Shown: in pieces, positions 121 to 6,816 of the stretch
Position numbering within the stretch: position 1 is the stretch's first letter
Layout: every line of letters begins with the position of its first letter
Assembly (NCBI GenBank): GCA_005877655.1
Contig: VBOC01000198.1
Span: 1 to 11,555 of the forward strand
Reading direction: 5' to 3'
DNA: 11,555 bases
From: Ignavibacteria bacterium
GTDB taxonomy: Bacteria; Bacteroidota; Ignavibacteria; UBA10030; SZUA-254
Notes under the pieces: model-generated
What the model was told of the DNA's origin: nothing
What the model saw: only the letters and a program-made list of their open reading frames with translations
Database searches by the model: none
Program-made: the position numbers and the translations under genes

Positions 121-1770
121 TTACACGTTGAGGATCTGGTGCTTGAAACGGTCGATTTCGACGTCGTTCCTGAGCCGTTGGACAAAATCGAGCCCGTACT
201 TATTCATAAAGTAGACGATGCTGAGCACACGCTCCTGAAGATTCCCCTTCGGAACGATGCTGTCGATCACTTTCCTCACCTGCCTGAGGGCGATCTCGTG
301 TTTTCGCTTCTGCGCCTCGATAACCTTCTCCTTCAGCACGACCAAGTGTGATTCGATCTTCGCTCGCGTCGCTTCGAGCGGCCCCATGAGCGTTGAATCG
401 ATATAGTTCAACCCGTATTTCATTTCCGCCATCAGCTCGTTCGTCCGCTTCACGGCATCGTTGAACATCTCGTCGATTTTGACTTCGGAGATCAGCTCGA
501 CGACCTTACGGCTGACTTTCTCCGGGTCTCCGAAGAATTCAAGCAACTCGAGCTGATACTTCTCCAGGATACGCTCGAATTTCTGCTCGTAAATAGTGAC
601 GCTGGCCCGCGGGTAGATGATCGGCATCGTGAGGTCAAAATAGGCATACACCGGTTTTAGCTGGGCAAAATAGGCAATCTCCGACGGTCCCCCGACGTAC
701 GCCAGCGTGGGGAGAAGCGTGTCCTGGCAGATCGGGCGCAGCGCAACGTTCGGGCTGATGAGCTCGGGAGTCTCGGTGACGATCTTGAGGAGCTCCTCCT
801 TCTGAAAATACTGGCGCGTCCCCTTGAGGCTGAAGTCATGCTCCCGCGGCTCGATGAAGTATCTCCCCCCCTTGAAAAACATGAAGAGATTCATCGCCTT
901 CGTCTTGATCTGTGCGTGATACCGCTCCTCCAGTTCGGCGCTTCGCTGGATGATCAGCTGCGAAACCTTGGGATAGTCCTGGAGTTCCTTGAGGAAGATC
1001 GGGACAAGCAGTTCCTTCAGCCGGCGATCGTTGGATGAAATGAAGACGAGGCCGGCGTCCTGGAACAGCGTGCCCATGAAGCGGGAGAACGAAGTGTTGA
1101 GCGTGGAAGAGGGGGTATACGCCGCTTTCAGCATGGAAAGAAGGGATGCCTTGAATTCCGAATTCGGGAGCGTCCGCTGAAGCTGCTCGAAAAAATGGTC
1201 GAGAGTGCTGTTGAGTTGAATCTCGCCGACGGCGCCGGGGTTTTTCAGGATCTGCTTTGCCTTCGGCACGTACTCGATCTCCACCGGAGCGTGATCGGCG
1301 TTCAGGACGCTGACCTTGTTGATTTCTGCGAAGTCATGGTCCTCGCCCTCCAGCCAGAAGACGGGTACGAAGTGGTACTCGGGGTAGGAGGATGCAAGCC
1401 GTTCGGCGAGCTTCAGGGCGGTGACGGTCTTATAGATTGTGTACAGGGGGCCGCCGAGGATTCCGACCTGCTGTCCGGTCACAATCGCAAAGGATTTGGG
1501 ATCGCCGAGCCGCCGCGCATTCTCGAGGGTCTTCTCCGGCGCGCCCATCTGCCGGTTTTGGTCGATAAGGACATCGGCGACGACCGAGCGGTGCTTCGCC
1601 TGACGCGCGATCTGCTCGGCATGGGCGGGAAAATTCTGGAGAGAATGAAAGTCTGCTTCGAAGTACTGGCGCACCTTCTGGAACTGGCCGATGTAGTCGT
1701 CAAAGAGTCTGGAGAAGCTCCCTTCGGCGTGAGGAAGCTTTTCGAAATCAACCCACTGTGAGTCGGCCAT
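121..1770 (-). CDS. bshC: Bacillithiol biosynthesis cysteine-adding enzyme BshC
   Basis: This cytoplasmic enzyme is assigned the last step of bacillithiol synthesis, adding cysteine to the glucosaminyl-malate made by BshA and BshB. From the ATG at 1770 it has 549 residues, close to the usual family length of about 540. Family signatures are clear: TGQQVGILGGPLYTIYK near residues 98-114, PVFWLEGEDHD at 136-146 (the nucleotide-binding-like core), and a conserved block running from SPNVALRP (339-346) through LAYVGGPSEIAYFAQLK (356-372). Residues about 465-505 look like the family's C-terminal coiled coil. The reading frame stays open upstream to 2232, but that part is antisense to the Rieske gene. 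The start at 1770 fits the family N-terminus and a promoter candidate at 1803-1831. No strong Shine-Dalgarno sequence is visible. BshA and BshB are not in the window. Confidence 0.93.
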   Translation of the reverse strand: MADSQWVDFEKLPHAEGSFSRLFDDYIGQFQKVRQYFEADFHSLQNFPAHAEQIARQAKHRSVVADVLIDQNRQMGAPEKTLENARRLGDPKSFAIVTGQQVGILGGPLYTIYKTVTALKLAERLASSYPEYHFVPVFWLEGEDHDFAEINKVSVLNADHAPVEIEYVPKAKQILKNPGAVGEIQLNSTLDHFFEQLQRTLPNSEFKASLLSMLKAAYTPSSTLNTSFSRFMGTLFQDAGLVFISSNDRRLKELLVPIFLKELQDYPKVSQLIIQRSAELEERYHAQIKTKAMNLFMFFKGGRYFIEPREHDFSLKGTRQYFQKEELLKIVTETPELISPNVALRPICQDTLLPTLAYVGGPSEIAYFAQLKPVYAYFDLTMPIIYPRASVTIYEQKFERILEKYQLELLEFFGDPEKVSRKVVELISEVKIDEMFNDAVKRTNELMAEMKYGLNYIDSTLMGPLEATRAKIESHLVVLKEKVIEAQKRKHEIALRQVRKVIDSIVPKGNLQERVLSIVYFMNKYGLDFVQRLRNDVEIDRFKHQILNV

Positions 1771-1802
1771 TTCCGGGGGACTGTTGTTGAAGAATTCTGC
1801 GA

Positions 1803-1831
1803 AATATACTCTTTCAATCCAAGAGAAGCAA
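1803..1831 (-). promoter_or_regulatory. Candidate sigma70-type promoter for bshC
   Basis: On the minus strand TTGCTT (plus 1826-1831) is followed after 17 nt by TATATT (plus 1803-1808). The -10 is good; the -35 matches only its TTG. Transcription would begin near 1796, leaving a leader of about 25 nt before the ATG at 1770. This supports that start over longer versions of the reading frame. Confidence 0.45.
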
Positions 1832-1842
1832 ACCATCATCGT

Positions 1843-1871
1843 TTGACACAAAGCAATTTTTTTGCTATATT
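1843..1871 (+). promoter_or_regulatory. Strong sigma70-type promoter for the Rieske/cytochrome b operon
   Basis: A perfect -35 TTGACA (1843-1848) and a near-consensus -10 TATATT (1866-1871) are separated by exactly 17 nt inside an AT-rich patch. Transcription would start near 1878, about 38 nt before the Rieske start codon. The -35 lies only 11 bp from the -35 of the divergent bshC candidate, so polymerases at the two sites would compete and a regulator bound here could affect both genes. No clear operator palindrome was seen. Confidence 0.7.
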
Positions 1872-1915
1872 TTTTGCGCTCGATCAAGGGTATCTGAAAA
1901 CTCATCATTGGCGTA

Positions 1916-2584
1916 ATGGATAACCCCAGCGGTCCCGGGACCGAGAACAAAACTCTCCCACAGGCCGGTAACCCACCGGTCGTTTCCAGCTCAACATCGC
2001 CGCCTGCTGTCGCGCCGCCGCAATCGAAACCTCCCGTTGCCTCGGGAGCGATCAAGAAACCGAAGCAGGACAAACCCCCCGAACATGACCTCGGCATCTG
2101 GCGTATCAGCCGTCGAAATTTCTTCTCCCTGGCGGGATGGGCCGCTTTTTTCGTGTTTCTTGCGACTTCCACGATCGGCACACTGCGGATGATGTTTCCG
2201 CGTATTCTGTATGAACCGCCCTCGGCGTTCAAGGCCGGTTTCCCGCAGGACTACATCGTCGGTGAGGTGAGCGAGAAGTACAAGGATGACTACCGGGTCT
2301 GGATCATCCGTGATTCGGAGGGGTTTTACGCTCTGTCGGCCATCTGTACGCACCTGGGGTGCACACCCCGATGGCTTGAGGCCGAGAACAAATTCAAGTG
2401 TCCGTGTCACGGGAGCGGTTTCCGGCGCAGCGGGATTAATTTTGAAGGACCGGCCCCCCGCCCCCTTGAACGCCTTAGGATCGCATTGGCGGACGACGGC
2501 CAGATCCTGATCGACCGCAACATCAAGTTCCTCTTTGAAAACGGGGACTGGGTCAAGCCTGAAGCGTTTCTGAAGTATAGCTGA
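1916..2584 (+). CDS. petC: Rieske [2Fe-2S] iron-sulfur protein of a cytochrome b6-type complex
   Basis: This subunit takes one electron from quinol at the Qo site and passes it to a c-type cytochrome. It has 222 residues. Residues 1-58 are a low-complexity tail rich in Pro, Ser and Ala. ISRRNFF (64-70) resembles a twin-arginine signal, and the hydrophobic anchor spans about 71-90. The cluster-binding boxes are intact: CTHLGC at 144-149 (ligands C144 and H146) and CPCHGS at 162-167 (ligands C162 and H165), with C149 and C164 as the expected disulfide. GPAPRPL (178-184) is the Pro loop. It is the first gene of a four-gene operon, with the next gene 20 nt downstream. No Shine-Dalgarno sequence precedes the ATG. 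The long N-terminal tail would be cytoplasmic. The gene symbol is given by analogy. Confidence 0.95.
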
Positions 2585-2595
2585 GTCGCGGGAAT

Positions 2596-2599
2596 GGAG
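2596..2599 (+). promoter_or_regulatory. Shine-Dalgarno site of the cytochrome b6 gene
   Basis: GGAG lies 5 nt before the ATG at 2605 and fixes that start. It stands out because the other three genes of this operon lack a recognisable ribosome binding site. Confidence 0.5.
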
Positions 2600-2604
2600 A
2601 AGCG

Positions 2605-3381
2605 ATGCTAAAAATACGGGAAAAGCTGCAGCAGACGGAAGTCTGGAAGTCGATCTTCCGTCACAACTATCAGGACACGAACAGGAACCGTGCCCTCCAG
2701 ATCGTCGACAACGTTTTCCTTCATCTCCATCCGGTGCGGATCCCGCGCCACGCTACCAACATCGGGTATACGTGGGGGATGGGAGGGATAACCTTTCTCC
2801 TGTTCATTGTCTTGACGGTGACCGGCGTGATCCTCATGTTTTATTACCGTCCGGCGGCGGAGTACGCGTATGAGGACATGAAATACCTCATGAACGATGT
2901 TGCCTTCGGTCCTTTGATCCGCAACATGCACCGGTGGTCTGCGCATGCCATGGTCATCACCGTCATGCTGCACATGTTCAGAGTCTTTCTGACCGGATCG
3001 TACAAGGCTCCCCGGCAGTTCAATTGGGTCGTGGGGGTTCTCCTTCTCGTGTTGACCCTGTTGCTCAGCTTCACGGGCTATCTTCTTCCATGGGACCAAC
3101 TGGCCATCTGGGCGGTCACCGTGGGCACAAACATGGCTCGCGCCACGCCCTTTCTCGGGCACCAGGGACCGTTCGGCCCGCAGCTCGGCATGCGTATCGA
3201 CAATGATGTTCGCTTCGTGCTCCTGGGCGGCACGCAGGTCGGGCCGCCGACGCTTCTTCGTTTCTATGTGGGCCACTGCATCTTCCTCCCGCTCATCGCC
3301 TCGATCTTCATGGCGGTCCATTTCTGGAGGATCCGGAAGGACGGAGGTATTTCCGGCCCGGTCTCAAATGATCGCGAATAA
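2605..3381 (+). CDS. petB: Cytochrome b6-type diheme subunit
   Basis: This membrane subunit carries the two b hemes that move electrons across the bilayer from the Qo site. Its 258 residues match the split b6 form (helices A-D) rather than full-length cytochrome b. The heme ligands are visible: H109 (in NMHRWS) and H123 (in LHMFRV) on one helix, H224 (YVGHC) and H239 (AVHFW) on another. The 14 residues between H224 and H239 are the b6-type spacing. [14 protein letters not shown] (158-171) is the family's Qo-side signature. The position that holds the covalent heme ci cysteine in plastid and Bacillus b6 is glycine here (G58), so a covalently bound third heme is not expected. The stop lies 19 nt before the subunit IV gene. 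Confidence 0.95.
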
Positions 3382-3400
3382 CTGAACCTATCGTGCAAGC

Positions 3401-4285
3401 ATGAATCACGTCTGGGAGCTCGTTCGAAAACCGGATAACATCCCGATCGTGGCGCTCTTGGTGTTCGTGATCGTCTATACCTGGTGGGCGTTCCACAAGG
3501 CGTTGAAAAATGACCGCCAGGGATACCTTGACGAAGCCCGATTAAGCGAGAAAATCCAGGTGTGGCCGAATCTGGTGCGGGTTGAATTTCTCGCCTCGCT
3601 GTTTGTGATGGTCATCCTTGTGTTCTGGTCCTTTCTCATCGACGCGCCGCTCGAAGAAGCCGCGAACCCCACGCTGACGCCGAATCCCTCGAAGGCGCCA
3701 TGGTACTTTCTCGGGTTGCAGGAAATGCTTGTTTACTTTGATCCGTGGATCGCCGGCGTCGTCATGCCGAGCCTGATCATCGTGGGCCTGATGGCGATTC
3801 CGTACATCGACATTAACGAGAAAGGGAACGGTTACTACACGTTCAAAGAGCGCAAGTTCTCAATCATCACTTTTTGCGTCGGGTTTCTGATCCTTTGGGT
3901 TTCCCTGATCAATCTCGGCACCTTCTGGCGCGGCCCCGGCTGGTATCTCTTTTTCCCCTGGGAAGAATGGGATACTCACCGCGTCGTGGCGCTTACCAAC
4001 GTCGATCTTTCCGAAGTGTTCGGTATCCATACCCGGAGGGCGGATTACAGCCTTAATCCCGCGGCCATCGTATTCGGGTCGGCTGTTATTCTTGGGTACT
4101 ACTCCCTGATCGGGGCCTACTGGCTGAAAAAGAGAAACTCAGATCTGATAAAAAAGCTCGGTTTCCTGCGCTACAATATCGTGGCCTTCCTCTTTCTGAC
4201 GATGACCGCCCTCCCGATCAAAATGATCCTGCGCATCGGGTTCAATATCAAGTACATCCTGGTTACCCCCTGGTTCAATATCTGA
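3401..4285 (+). CDS. Long subunit IV-like cytochrome b C-terminal subunit
   Basis: This membrane protein supplies the C-terminal half of cytochrome b and, with the Rieske protein, builds the Qo site. At 294 residues it is much longer than the roughly 160-residue subunit IV of b6f. About six hydrophobic segments are visible (about 14-30, 62-81, 117-134, 154-172, 220-241, 257-277). The Qo motif region reads NPSKAPWYFLGLQEML (95-110). The PEWY tetrad is therefore APWY (99-102) and lacks the acidic residue thought to take a proton from quinol. A distinctive loop with WRGPGWYLFFPWEEWD (176-191) follows a helix. The extra C-terminal helices may dock the octaheme subunit; that is inference. It lies 19 nt after petB with no clear Shine-Dalgarno site, and 23 nt before the cytochrome c gene. 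Confidence 0.9.
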   Translation: MNHVWELVRKPDNIPIVALLVFVIVYTWWAFHKALKNDRQGYLDEARLSEKIQVWPNLVRVEFLASLFVMVILVFWSFLIDAPLEEAANPTLTPNPSKAPWYFLGLQEMLVYFDPWIAGVVMPSLIIVGLMAIPYIDINEKGNGYYTFKERKFSIITFCVGFLILWVSLINLGTFWRGPGWYLFFPWEEWDTHRVVALTNVDLSEVFGIHTRRADYSLNPAAIVFGSAVILGYYSLIGAYWLKKRNSDLIKKLGFLRYNIVAFLFLTMTALPIKMILRIGFNIKYILVTPWFNI

Positions 4286-4308
4286 CACTGGACCGCTGAC
4301 CGCACGGT

Positions 4309-6816
4309 ATGAAAGGACCGCTTAGCTTCTTCGCCGCCCGGGCGGAGACCCCCATCGAAACGCGCGATTACGGAAGGGTATACTTCATCATGTCCGCCCT
4401 CCTCTTTCTGGGTACGATGTGGTCCGTTCTCGACGAGGTAACGACCCGGCGGCCCTGGAAAGAAGAGCAGGATCAGTACCTAGTTCTGAGCATCGAGAAG
4501 TGGCAGCAGCGCCTGAAGGATGCTCAGGCCGCCTTCGACTCGTCCTCCTTCCTCCGGCTGAGCGCCCAGTTGAAAGAGGCCCAGGACAGACTGGTCTCGC
4601 CCGAGGCCCGGGCGATTCAGAAGGAGGTCGACAGCCTCGAGGAAGTGTTGCTCGACGCGAACAGGGATTTTACGTTCGCGAAGAGCCGGGCGGATGAGGC
4701 GTATTATTTCTGGAAGAAGTCGATCCACGAAGGCAAGGAGGATCCCGGGTACCGCAGCAAGGTGCAGGAGCTGACCGCTCTGATGGCAAAGTACAACGCC
4801 AGGGTCGATGAGCTCACCTCCCGGCATGATTCGCTCGCGAAGATCGTGAACGGCTACAAGAACGACGTGAAGGCGATTCAGTCCTCGATCAAGGATCTTT
4901 ACAAAGAGATCGAGCTCGCGAATTCCAAGATCGAGAAGGCGAAAACTTCGCCCATTCTCATCAAACAGGTAATCATCAACAACTTCGATCGCTCGAACTT
5001 TGGAATTCCAAAAGCGCGCATTGATCGATGCCAGACCTGCCATGCCGGTTGGAAGGACGACGTCATGGCGGATGCACCCCAGCCGTTCACCAGGCACCCA
5101 GTTCCCGAGCTGCTGAAGATACACAAGCCGGAGTCTTTCGGCTGCACTCCGTGCCACCGCGGCCAGGGCGCCGCTCTGACGGCCGGATTCGCCCACGGAG
5201 ACGCCGATAAGTACTGGGAGTGGCCTCTGCTCAGCGGGAAAGAGGTGTACGCCTCCTGCACGGGTTGCCATGGGAACGAATCGTATGTCAAGGAGGCCGA
5301 CCGCCTGAATACAGGCAAGCAGATGCTCGCGGAGTCGGGTTGTTTCGGCTGTCATGAGGTCAAGGGTTTCCTCGATCTGGCGAAGATCGGGCCCGAACTG
5401 AACCAGCTCAGTGTCAAGGAGAAGCCCGACTGGATTTTCCGCTGGGTGCGCAACCCGAAGGACTACAACCCCCACACCCGTATGCCGAACTTCCGGTTCA
5501 CCGAAGACGAGGCGGCGGCGATCACCTCATACCTGTGGAGCGCGGGAAAGGAAGGGCCTTTCCAGGTGCGGAAGGGGATCAGCGCCGGGGGAGACGCCGC
5601 GCGGGGGAAGGAGCTTGTAGGAACGATCGGATGCAAGGGTTGCCATGTGGTCGGCGACGATATCCGGATGCGGCAGGCGCGCGGATTTTCCTACGACATC
5701 GCGCCGGAACTGACCCGGGCTGGCAGCAAGCTTGACCCCGACTGGATCTTTGAATGGATCAAGAACCCCCGAAGCTTCAGGCCTACCACCCGGATGCCGA
5801 GTCTCCGCCTCACCGACCAGGAGGCGCGCGATATTGTTGCCTACCTGATCACTCTCAAGGACGACCGTCATTTTGAAAAGAAGGTTCTCACGCTGGATGC
5901 TCCCGATCTGATCAAGCGCGGTGACAAGCTCATCCGCGACTTCGGTTGCTCGGGCTGCCACACGATAAAAGGGATGGAAAAAGAGGGCCGCGTCAGCGTG
6001 TCGCTTTCAAACTTCGGCCGCAAGCGGGTGGACGAGCTTGACTACGGAGACTCAAAGGTTCCGCATACATGGGACGACTGGGTTTTCGGGAAACTGAAGG
6101 ATTCGCGGATCTACACGACGGACCGCATCATTTCAAAAATGCCCGTGTTCGCCTTCGCCGACAGCTTCGACAAGAGTCTCCAGACTATCGAGGCGGGGCG
6201 GAAGCTGACACACTATTACAACTGCATCAATTGTCACCAGATCGAAGAGGTGGGCGGAGCAATCAAGGCCACGCTGGACGATGAAGGCTTTGCACCGCCG
6301 TTTCTGCTTCCGGAGGGATCGAAGGTTCAGGAACCCTGGTTACACAATTTCCTGACGGGGCCGACGCCAATTCGCCCATGGCTTAAAATACGAATGCCGA
6401 CGTTCACCCTTACGGACGACGAAATCGGAATCGTTCAACGGTACTTTCTTGCTCTTCACAAGCGGGAGATGGAGCTGCGGGATTACCGGGCAATCCCGCT
6501 CGATGAGAAATATGTGGTGAACGGCAAGAAACTGTTCGAGGATTACCAGTGCCTCAGCTGCCACTATACGGGGAAGATCCCGGAAGGGAAGAGCCCGGCA
6601 GATCTCGCCCCAAACCTGGCCCTGGCAAAGGAGAGGCTCAAGCCGGATTGGATCCTCGACTGGATTGCACGCCCCGATTCAATTCAGCCCGGAACGAGGA
6701 TGCCGAATTACTTTCCCGATATGCAGGCGTCGGATTCGTCGATCCTCGGGGGCAATGCGCGCGAACAGATTCGCGCTCTCCGCGACTACGTCTGGACCCT
6801 CCGGGAGACCCGTTAG
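4309..6816 (+). CDS. Membrane-anchored octaheme c-type cytochrome with coiled-coil spacer
   Basis: This is the probable electron-accepting subunit of the complex, in the place of cytochrome c1 or f. It has 835 residues. One hydrophobic helix at about 23-41 is followed by a charged, heptad-like coiled-coil region (about 55-213), then the heme domains. Eight CxxCH motifs start at residues 241, 279, 317, 345, 442, 547, 639 and 748. The first three have no Met motif near them, but H263, H272 and H296 lie among them as possible distal ligands. The last five are each followed by a Met in an (R/K)MP context (M392, M496, M611, M696, M798), so each looks like a class I cytochrome c module. Modules 4, 5 and 8 share a 'PDWI..W...P......TRMP' repeat; modules 6 and 7 have diverged. 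The N-terminal helix would act as an uncleaved signal anchor, placing the hemes outside the membrane. It is the last gene of the operon. The electron acceptor is unknown. Confidence 0.92.
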   Translation: MKGPLSFFAARAETPIETRDYGRVYFIMSALLFLGTMWSVLDEVTTRRPWKEEQDQYLVLSIEKWQQRLKDAQAAFDSSSFLRLSAQLKEAQDRLVSPEARAIQKEVDSLEEVLLDANRDFTFAKSRADEAYYFWKKSIHEGKEDPGYRSKVQELTALMAKYNARVDELTSRHDSLAKIVNGYKNDVKAIQSSIKDLYKEIELANSKIEKAKTSPILIKQVIINNFDRSNFGIPKARIDRCQTCHAGWKDDVMADAPQPFTRHPVPELLKIHKPESFGCTPCHRGQGAALTAGFAHGDADKYWEWPLLSGKEVYASCTGCHGNESYVKEADRLNTGKQMLAESGCFGCHEVKGFLDLAKIGPELNQLSVKEKPDWIFRWVRNPKDYNPHTRMPNFRFTEDEAAAITSYLWSAGKEGPFQVRKGISAGGDAARGKELVGTIGCKGCHVVGDDIRMRQARGFSYDIAPELTRAGSKLDPDWIFEWIKNPRSFRPTTRMPSLRLTDQEARDIVAYLITLKDDRHFEKKVLTLDAPDLIKRGDKLIRDFGCSGCHTIKGMEKEGRVSVSLSNFGRKRVDELDYGDSKVPHTWDDWVFGKLKDSRIYTTDRIISKMPVFAFADSFDKSLQTIEAGRKLTHYYNCINCHQIEEVGGAIKATLDDEGFAPPFLLPEGSKVQEPWLHNFLTGPTPIRPWLKIRMPTFTLTDDEIGIVQRYFLALHKREMELRDYRAIPLDEKYVVNGKKLFEDYQCLSCHYTGKIPEGKSPADLAPNLALAKERLKPDWILDWIARPDSIQPGTRMPNYFPDMQASDSSILGGNAREQIRALRDYVWTLRETR

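Follow-up and report, generated by a model that had tools for sequence, protein, structure and literature searches.

A Rieske/cytochrome b6 operon with an octaheme cytochrome c in Ignavibacteria and its likely connection to a CuA-type cytochrome oxidase

We analyzed a stretch of 11,555 nt (the window) of contig VBOC01000198.1 from an Ignavibacteria bacterium (assembly GCA_005877655.1). It contains an operon of four genes for a Rieske protein, a cytochrome b6-like subunit, a subunit IV-like protein and a cytochrome c with eight heme motifs. Sequence comparisons lead us to the reading, with a probability of about 0.75, that the operon codes for an octaheme-type complex III, which most likely feeds an oxygen-consuming CuA oxidase, probably of the aa3 type. 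What is new here is this likely electron acceptor of the octaheme complex. An earlier note on the same DNA had suggested extracellular or long-range electron export and had named no acceptor; the linkage and co-occurrence data point instead to a CuA oxidase with a cupredoxin-like protein. In the following, genomes, loci and homologous proteins carry the prefixes G, L and P, and contigs of the window's own genome, G000, the prefix C; f1 is the window's family.

Linkage and co-occurrence with an oxidase operon

Genes were counted in a sample of 60 whole genomes of relatives. A window-type octaheme gene, defined by at least 44% identity to that of the window, is present in 29 of these genomes, and in all 29 carriers a subunit IV gene lies on the same contig. 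The gap between the two genes is at most 64 nt in 27 carriers. In one of the two remaining carriers the subunit IV hit is partial and lies at a distance of 215 nt. The other, G016, has an insertion; in this genome a TonB-dependent receptor gene (L046:7078-9165) stands between subunit IV and the octaheme gene. Rieske and b6 genes are also present in the 23 window-type loci, spanning 8.7 to 20 kb, which were compared at larger scale. This conserved co-occurrence supports the defined complex proposed in the earlier note. Homologs away from Rieske/cytochrome b genes were not seen among the carriers, all of which are linked to subunit IV.

The octaheme gene is furthermore linked to one type of oxidase operon. 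We call a COX1 linked-type when it is at least 72% identical to the COX1 of locus L044. Octaheme gene and COX1 are found on one contig in 15 genomes, with COX1 downstream; in G036 and G048 the arrangement is apparently the same but is interrupted by contig ends. COX1 is present in 12 of the 23 window-type loci, and in 10 of the 23 the seven-gene order cupredoxin-like protein, COX1, COX3, COX4, COX2, CtaA, CtaB is complete. The COX2 proteins have the CuA motif in 11 of 11 cases and a CxxCH motif in none. We use the label aa3 because of this motif and because CtaA, which suggests heme a, adjoins. In the cupredoxin-like protein a His, a Cys-x-V-His and a Met are kept in all 15 aligned sequences, 12 of which are window type.

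Linked-type COX1 occurs in 32 of the 60 genomes, namely in 28 of the 29 with the octaheme gene and in 4 of the 31 without it (Fisher p 9e-12, uncorrected for kinship). The sole octaheme genome without a COX1 match is G000 itself. Its contig C16 carries CtaB, CtaA, COX2, COX4 and part of COX3 and ends inside COX3; the oxidase operon is therefore present, wholly or in part, in each of the 29 octaheme genomes. A COX1 fragment on another contig of G000, C34 (L056), was considered as the oxidase of the window and was dropped, since the other genes of C34 look foreign to G000 by content and the linked-type operon was found on C16. C34 also carries another cupredoxin-like gene. Within family f1 the oxidase is found in 10 of 10 octaheme genomes (in G000 by the partial operon), and linked-type COX1 in none of the five genomes without the octaheme gene, one of which, G010, is only 61% complete. 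This co-occurrence without adjacency inside one family is a stronger point than the Fisher p value. Together, the data support a dedicated terminal oxidase for the octaheme complex at the level of an association only. In the literature searched, which included few subscription papers, we found no account that links an octaheme bc operon of Ignavibacteria-like bacteria to a cytochrome oxidase.

Several observations weigh against a connection of the octaheme complex to this oxidase. The Fisher p value overstates the case because the genomes are related and the counts are not independent. COX1 of the linked type was not found in G000, a genome of 79% completeness in which C16 breaks at COX3. The octaheme and oxidase operons are on different contigs in f1, and in those f1 loci where downstream genes are seen (L035, L038-L042) these are not oxidase genes; some f1 contigs are short. 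Pfam detects just the carboxypeptidase-regulatory-like part of the cupredoxin-like protein, so that copper binding is predicted from the ligand motifs, and cupredoxin-like genes also occur in clusters without the linked oxidase. The COX1 and COX2 proteins of L044 stay below the NCBIfam cut-offs for CtaD_CoxA (573.8 vs 670.75) and CoxB (114.5 vs 147.7). Four genomes (G021, G027, G032 and G047) have linked-type COX1 and no window-type octaheme gene. G027, G032 and G047 have instead a shorter octaheme relative with about 33% identity, next to which an NAD(P) oxidoreductase was shown in G032 only; in G021, which is 77% complete, no such relative was found. Finally, the octaheme complex and the marker of another quinol oxidizer, described next, occur together in five genomes.

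This marker is TIGR04519, which we take to represent ActB of alternative complex III. It was detected in 22 of the 60 genomes, and all 22 have another COX1 type, which is 38-42% identical to the linked type and present in 25 of the 60. Neither system was found in 14 genomes, 11 of which have no COX1 match; G000, at 79% completeness, gave no match to TIGR04519. Alternative complex III (Act) resembles the octaheme complex in its proposed role, i.e. quinol oxidation for a heme-copper oxidase, and, in the window's order, goes with its own COX1 type, but the proteins of the two complexes are unrelated. The pairing of marker and COX1 type therefore indicates that two unrelated quinol oxidizers each accompany their own oxidase.

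A search of five genomes for class I cytochromes c with PF00034 and PF13442, to both of which multiheme or divergent cytochromes are invisible, gave a variable result. G045 (92% complete) has no class I cytochrome c besides the octaheme protein, G035 and G050 each have one further lipoprotein-like hit of 127 aa, and G001 and G022 have several. The constant partner of the window type is therefore the cupredoxin-like protein and not a soluble monoheme carrier. These results bear on a variant of our reading, in which complex III is permanently docked with the oxidase and the octaheme chain itself, as a fixed wire, would lead electrons to CuA without a mobile carrier. It agrees with the cytochrome content of G045 and with the 15 genomes in which COX1 follows the octaheme gene on one contig. 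Actinobacterial bcc-aa3 (QcrABC) would be the parallel to it, with two hemes instead of eight: it has an unsplit cytochrome b and a diheme c subunit that feeds the aa3 oxidase, and the actinobacterial QcrC model matches the octaheme protein weakly (43.8 bits, cut-off 200). However, the cupredoxin-like gene between octaheme gene and COX1 suggests a mobile or bridging copper carrier, and the separate contigs of the two operons in the window's family do not favor permanent docking; the fixed wire is thus conceivable, albeit rather unlikely.

The linkage to COX1 also bears on the alternative that the octaheme protein exports electrons to an outer-membrane conduit, i.e. over a long range or out of the cell. 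Eight hemes and a long coiled coil would suit this role, and distant relatives of the complex adjoin a one-heme protein, a presumed Cyc2-type cytochrome-porin (L051, L052, L054, L063-L066, L068-L070). However, the porin-like one-heme gene was matched in 0 of the 23 window-type loci, while COX1 lies downstream in 12 of them. The octaheme subunit has an N-terminal membrane anchor and five putatively Met-ligated domains, and Met-ligated class I heme domains are typically high-potential. In addition, the Em of +335 mV given for a related Rieske protein from Kuenenia in PMC12954380 is high for metal reduction. In view of these points we consider export highly improbable.

Operon layout and properties of the subunits

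The four genes (Table 1) follow each other on the plus strand with intergenic spacings of 20, 19 and 23 nt. No cytochrome f or c1 domain was detected by Pfam among the ten window proteins scanned, and no CxxCH motif occurs outside the octaheme protein in any window reading frame of at least 100 residues. The earlier note described a tight operon with a long subunit IV, no cytochrome f or c1 and an 835-residue cytochrome that has eight CxxCH motifs together with a membrane helix and an extended coiled coil. This description agrees with the reading frames, the Pfam domains and the protein features given below.

Table 1. Features of the operon in the window (positions in the window).
Feature	Position	Strand	Remarks
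Rieske [2Fe-2S] subunit	1916-2584	+	222 aa; Pfam Rieske E 1.4e-9
Cytochrome b6-like subunit	2605-3381	+	258 aa; Pfam Cytochrome_B E 2.4e-45
Subunit IV-like protein	3401-4285	+	294 aa; Pfam Cytochrom_B_C E 6.2e-7
Octaheme cytochrome c	4309-6816	+	835 aa; Pfam Cytochrom_C, CBB3, C7 domains
In-frame junction of 24 missing residues	6165-6166	+	comparison with P0002

The octaheme protein has its CxxCH motifs at residues 241, 279, 317, 345, 442, 547, 639 and 748. In an alignment of 68 sequences (the window and 67 of 120 listed homologs) all eight motifs are invariant; hence they are not due to chance. Also invariant are His 263, 272 and 296 and Met 392, 496, 611, 696 and 798, the latter in R/K-M-P motifs. 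The three additional His and the five Met therefore provide eight candidate distal ligands for the eight hemes. We interpret the protein as three putative bis-His hemes near the membrane anchor followed by five putative class I domains with His/Met ligation, in which the pairing of ligands and hemes is our assignment from the sequence. A set of 18 proteins of wider origin, some of them labeled NC10, Tectomicrobia, Binatia or Nitrospinota, shows no variation at the three His and at four of the five Met. The remaining Met is conserved in 13 of the 18; as aligned here, four sequences have E at its position and one partial sequence has a gap.

A single membrane helix candidate lies at residues 24-44, and the AlphaFold2 model has long helices over residues 21-213. 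The mean pLDDT of this model is 72, and much of the triheme part is modeled at pLDDT < 50. A fold search with the model yielded 719 matches, none of them at E <= 0.001; the listed ones are mostly coiled coils and helical bundles. Database records name the homologs mostly 'mono/diheme cytochrome c family protein' or 'c-type cytochrome', and a few 'putative octahem cytochrome c'. The labeled homologs come from Ignavibacteria and other Bacteroidota lineages.

The window copy lacks 24 residues, corresponding to 620-643 of the otherwise almost identical P0002, so that its 835 aa represent a shortened copy in a family with a length of about 859 aa. The gap removes the apparent C-terminal helix of the heme-6 class I domain, and within the missing stretch five alignment columns show conservation in at least 90% of the 68 sequences. 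This conservation, and the presence of the stretch in P0002, would fit a gene that is broken or degenerate in G000. However, the copy keeps its reading frame, the eight heme motifs and every candidate distal ligand, and an assembly error of the metagenomic contig could equally explain the gap. Degeneration of the gene is therefore in our view improbable.

The Rieske subunit has one N-terminal membrane helix, a proline-rich N-terminus and the cluster motifs CTHLGC and CPCHGSGF. Its best PDB match is 9rk3 (E 5.4e-47, 163 bits), with 67 of 116 columns identical (58%); the match takes in the CPCHGSGF stretch and the C-terminal extension. This entry is the crystallized Kuenenia Rieske protein Kustd1480, with a measured Em of +335 mV, and the CPCHGSGF motif of the window fits the Ser/Phe pair discussed in the same paper (PMC12954380).

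The b6 subunit is the most conserved part of the complex. In full-length window-type comparisons its identity is 84-95%, that of subunit IV 60-89% and that of the octaheme protein 44-76%. The His pairs of b6, 109/123 (spacing 14) and 224/239 (spacing 15), are as in b6 proteins. We take the ligand of heme cn in cytochrome b6f to sit at the position of a Cys in helix A. The window b6 and all 23 window-type b6 rows lack a Cys in helix A, and the window b6 therefore has no heme cn ligand. Among 39 aligned b6 rows such a Cys occurs only in L071 and L072, further along the helix. Ahead of helix A an HxHP motif (b6 residues 40-42, LHLHP) is kept in 37 of the 39 rows, the exceptions being L037 and L073. 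It might be related to the extra dimer-interface b heme modeled in Kuenenia (His62 of Kustd1481). In subunit IV the PEWY motif is replaced by APWY in all 38 aligned sequences, including that of the window. A simple hydropathy scan gave six candidate membrane helices for subunit IV and not three; the extra candidates are one at the N-terminus and two at the C-terminus.

To the left of the operon lies bshC on the other strand. Its mechanically defined reading frame (window 121-2232) overlaps the Rieske gene because it is taken from the first start codon; the BshC model starts at residue 173. This divergent placement of bshC ahead of the operon is seen in 15 of the 23 window-type loci, some of which have different downstream genes. 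To the right of the operon, again on the other strand, the window contains genes for a purine nucleoside phosphorylase and an ABC transporter, which have no visible role in the complex.

Relation to known complexes and sister types

The complex is of a known octaheme Rieske/b6 kind and not a new type. This follows from the match of the Rieske subunit to Kustd1480 and from Lücker et al. 2013 (PMC3578206), where an operon of an Fe-S subunit, a split cytochrome b and an "atypical octaheme cytochrome c" is described as common to Nitrospina, Kuenenia and Methylomirabilis. The suggestion in the earlier note of a distinct complex type is thus not supported, given an operon already in print. Whether the complex had been characterized before has a divided answer: the Kuenenia complex has been modeled (PMC12954380), and a purified, experimentally solved whole complex was not found in the literature examined.

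Like the window, Nitrospina gracilis and Methylomirabilis oxyfera have Rieske, split b6/IV and octaheme c genes in one operon, and the Nitrospina version was assigned to electron transport, both forward and reverse, in a nitrite oxidizer (PMC3578206). The likeness of the octaheme proteins of Nitrospina, Methylomirabilis and Kuenenia to that of the window is judged by published description and by two labeled homologs. These are P0219 (labeled Nitrospinota; 277 of 837 columns, 33%) and the partial P0150 (labeled NC10; 211 of 669 columns, 32%). Both share all eight heme motifs and keep eight or seven of the distal ligands. Unlike the Nitrospina kind, the window type is accompanied by a CuA oxidase operon.

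The Kuenenia complex Kustd1480-1485 shares with the window a Rieske protein of 58% identity with the same SGF stretch and C-terminal extension, a b6-like subunit, an enlarged subunit IV and a large multiheme c protein with long helices. In PMC12954380 its subunit IV was modeled with five helices and its b6-like subunit with heme cn; the model also includes an NAD(P) oxidoreductase and, in the large c subunit, long helices that wrap the complex. In contrast, the window has six candidate helices in subunit IV, no helix A Cys and no gene for an NAD(P) oxidoreductase. Cytochrome b6f has in common with the window the split b6/IV, the 14/15 His spacing and a Rieske protein of the b6f kind; it differs from the window, which has no cytochrome f, no Cys for heme cn, APWY instead of PEWY and an octaheme c. 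Membership in the selenite/tellurite (Ext) operon family was rejected, with all three NCBIfam scores below their curated cut-offs (b6/ExtP 285.1 of 290, subunit IV/ExtQ 53.4 of 150, octaheme/ExtS 89.8 of 100 bits). A b6 scan of viral contigs found no relative, and the scan of genome contigs found one locus only.

Rieske, b6 and subunit IV genes also occur together with a gene for a related multiheme protein in other clusters. Kuenenia-like clusters with an NAD(P) oxidoreductase occur in the window's own order; the multiheme protein has eight hemes in L051, L052 and L070 and five in L071-L073. Another group (L054, L063-L066, L068, L069) has eight hemes each, together with a one-heme protein, a monoheme cytochrome and a cupredoxin-like protein. 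The one-heme protein, which is also present in L051, L052 and L070, has one CxxCH near its N-terminus and continues for about 400 residues after it (L054:8506-9903, L051:16116-17528). We take it to be a Cyc2-like cytochrome-porin, with both the name and the barrel presumed; searches of Pfam, NCBIfam and PDB with the L054 copy gave no significant match.

The presence of Kuenenia-like clusters raises the possibility that the window encodes a bifurcating or reverse enzyme which makes NAD(P)H, as was proposed for Kustd1480-1485. Kustd1480 is the closest solved Rieske protein, and other members of the window's order have clusters that include a Pyr_redox/Fer4 NAD(P) oxidoreductase. However, the window has no reductase gene, and tblastn matched none in the 23 window-type loci. 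Furthermore, the b6 tree separates the reductase type from the window type (95/83) and places the other sister types nearer to the window type; the branches in this tree are long and the support is rough. We therefore regard an NAD(P)H-forming enzyme in the window as very unlikely.

The sister types are also found in other families of the phylum. Among 296 genomes of the phylum, 25 of 33 hits fall in families f26 (24) and f24 (one). Chlorosome protein C was found in five of five tested f26 and f24 genomes and was absent in two tested genomes of other families; the f26 and f24 genomes therefore belong to green sulfur bacteria or close kin. The genomes with chlorosome protein C (G097, G068, G142, G170 and G167) have clusters of Rieske, b6, IV, octaheme, monoheme c and cupredoxin genes (L063-L065, L068, L069). 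G000 itself has a second cluster of b6, IV, octaheme and monoheme genes near the start of contig C196 (L036), in which the octaheme part is split over two reading frames with 4 + 4 hemes.

Proposed electron path and its meaning

We propose that the four gene products assemble into one complex in which quinol would be oxidized at the Qo site of b6/subunit IV. One electron would pass over the Rieske cluster to the eight-heme subunit; the other would return to the quinone pool by way of both b hemes, as in the Q-cycle. The octaheme subunit would be held by its one helix and spread across the complex by the coiled coil, which may reach to about residue 213. Electrons may then be relayed from the three putative bis-His hemes near the anchor to the five class I domains, and from these to CuA of the aa3-type oxidase, either directly or via the cupredoxin-like protein with its carboxypeptidase-regulatory-like domain.

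We can extend this scheme tentatively to the sister types. It is possible, if uncertain, that one octaheme Rieske/b6 chassis serves opposite electron flows within one phylum. In the window type, electrons would move from quinol over an eight-heme wire to cupredoxin and aa3, and the chain would replace soluble cytochrome c and alternative complex III. In the sister types, which occur also in green sulfur bacteria, they would move from a Cyc2-like outer-membrane cytochrome-porin over cupredoxin and monoheme c uphill to quinone, and with a flavin reductase also to NAD(P)H.

The proposed path offers a candidate acceptor for a family of multiheme bc complexes that is described, in the literature examined, from anammox, nitrite-oxidizing and NC10 bacteria. 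If it is correct, Ignavibacteria and other Bacteroidota lineages would use an aerobic complex III of this family in place of alternative complex III, and the eight hemes may serve the connection from complex III to complex IV and not the export of electrons.

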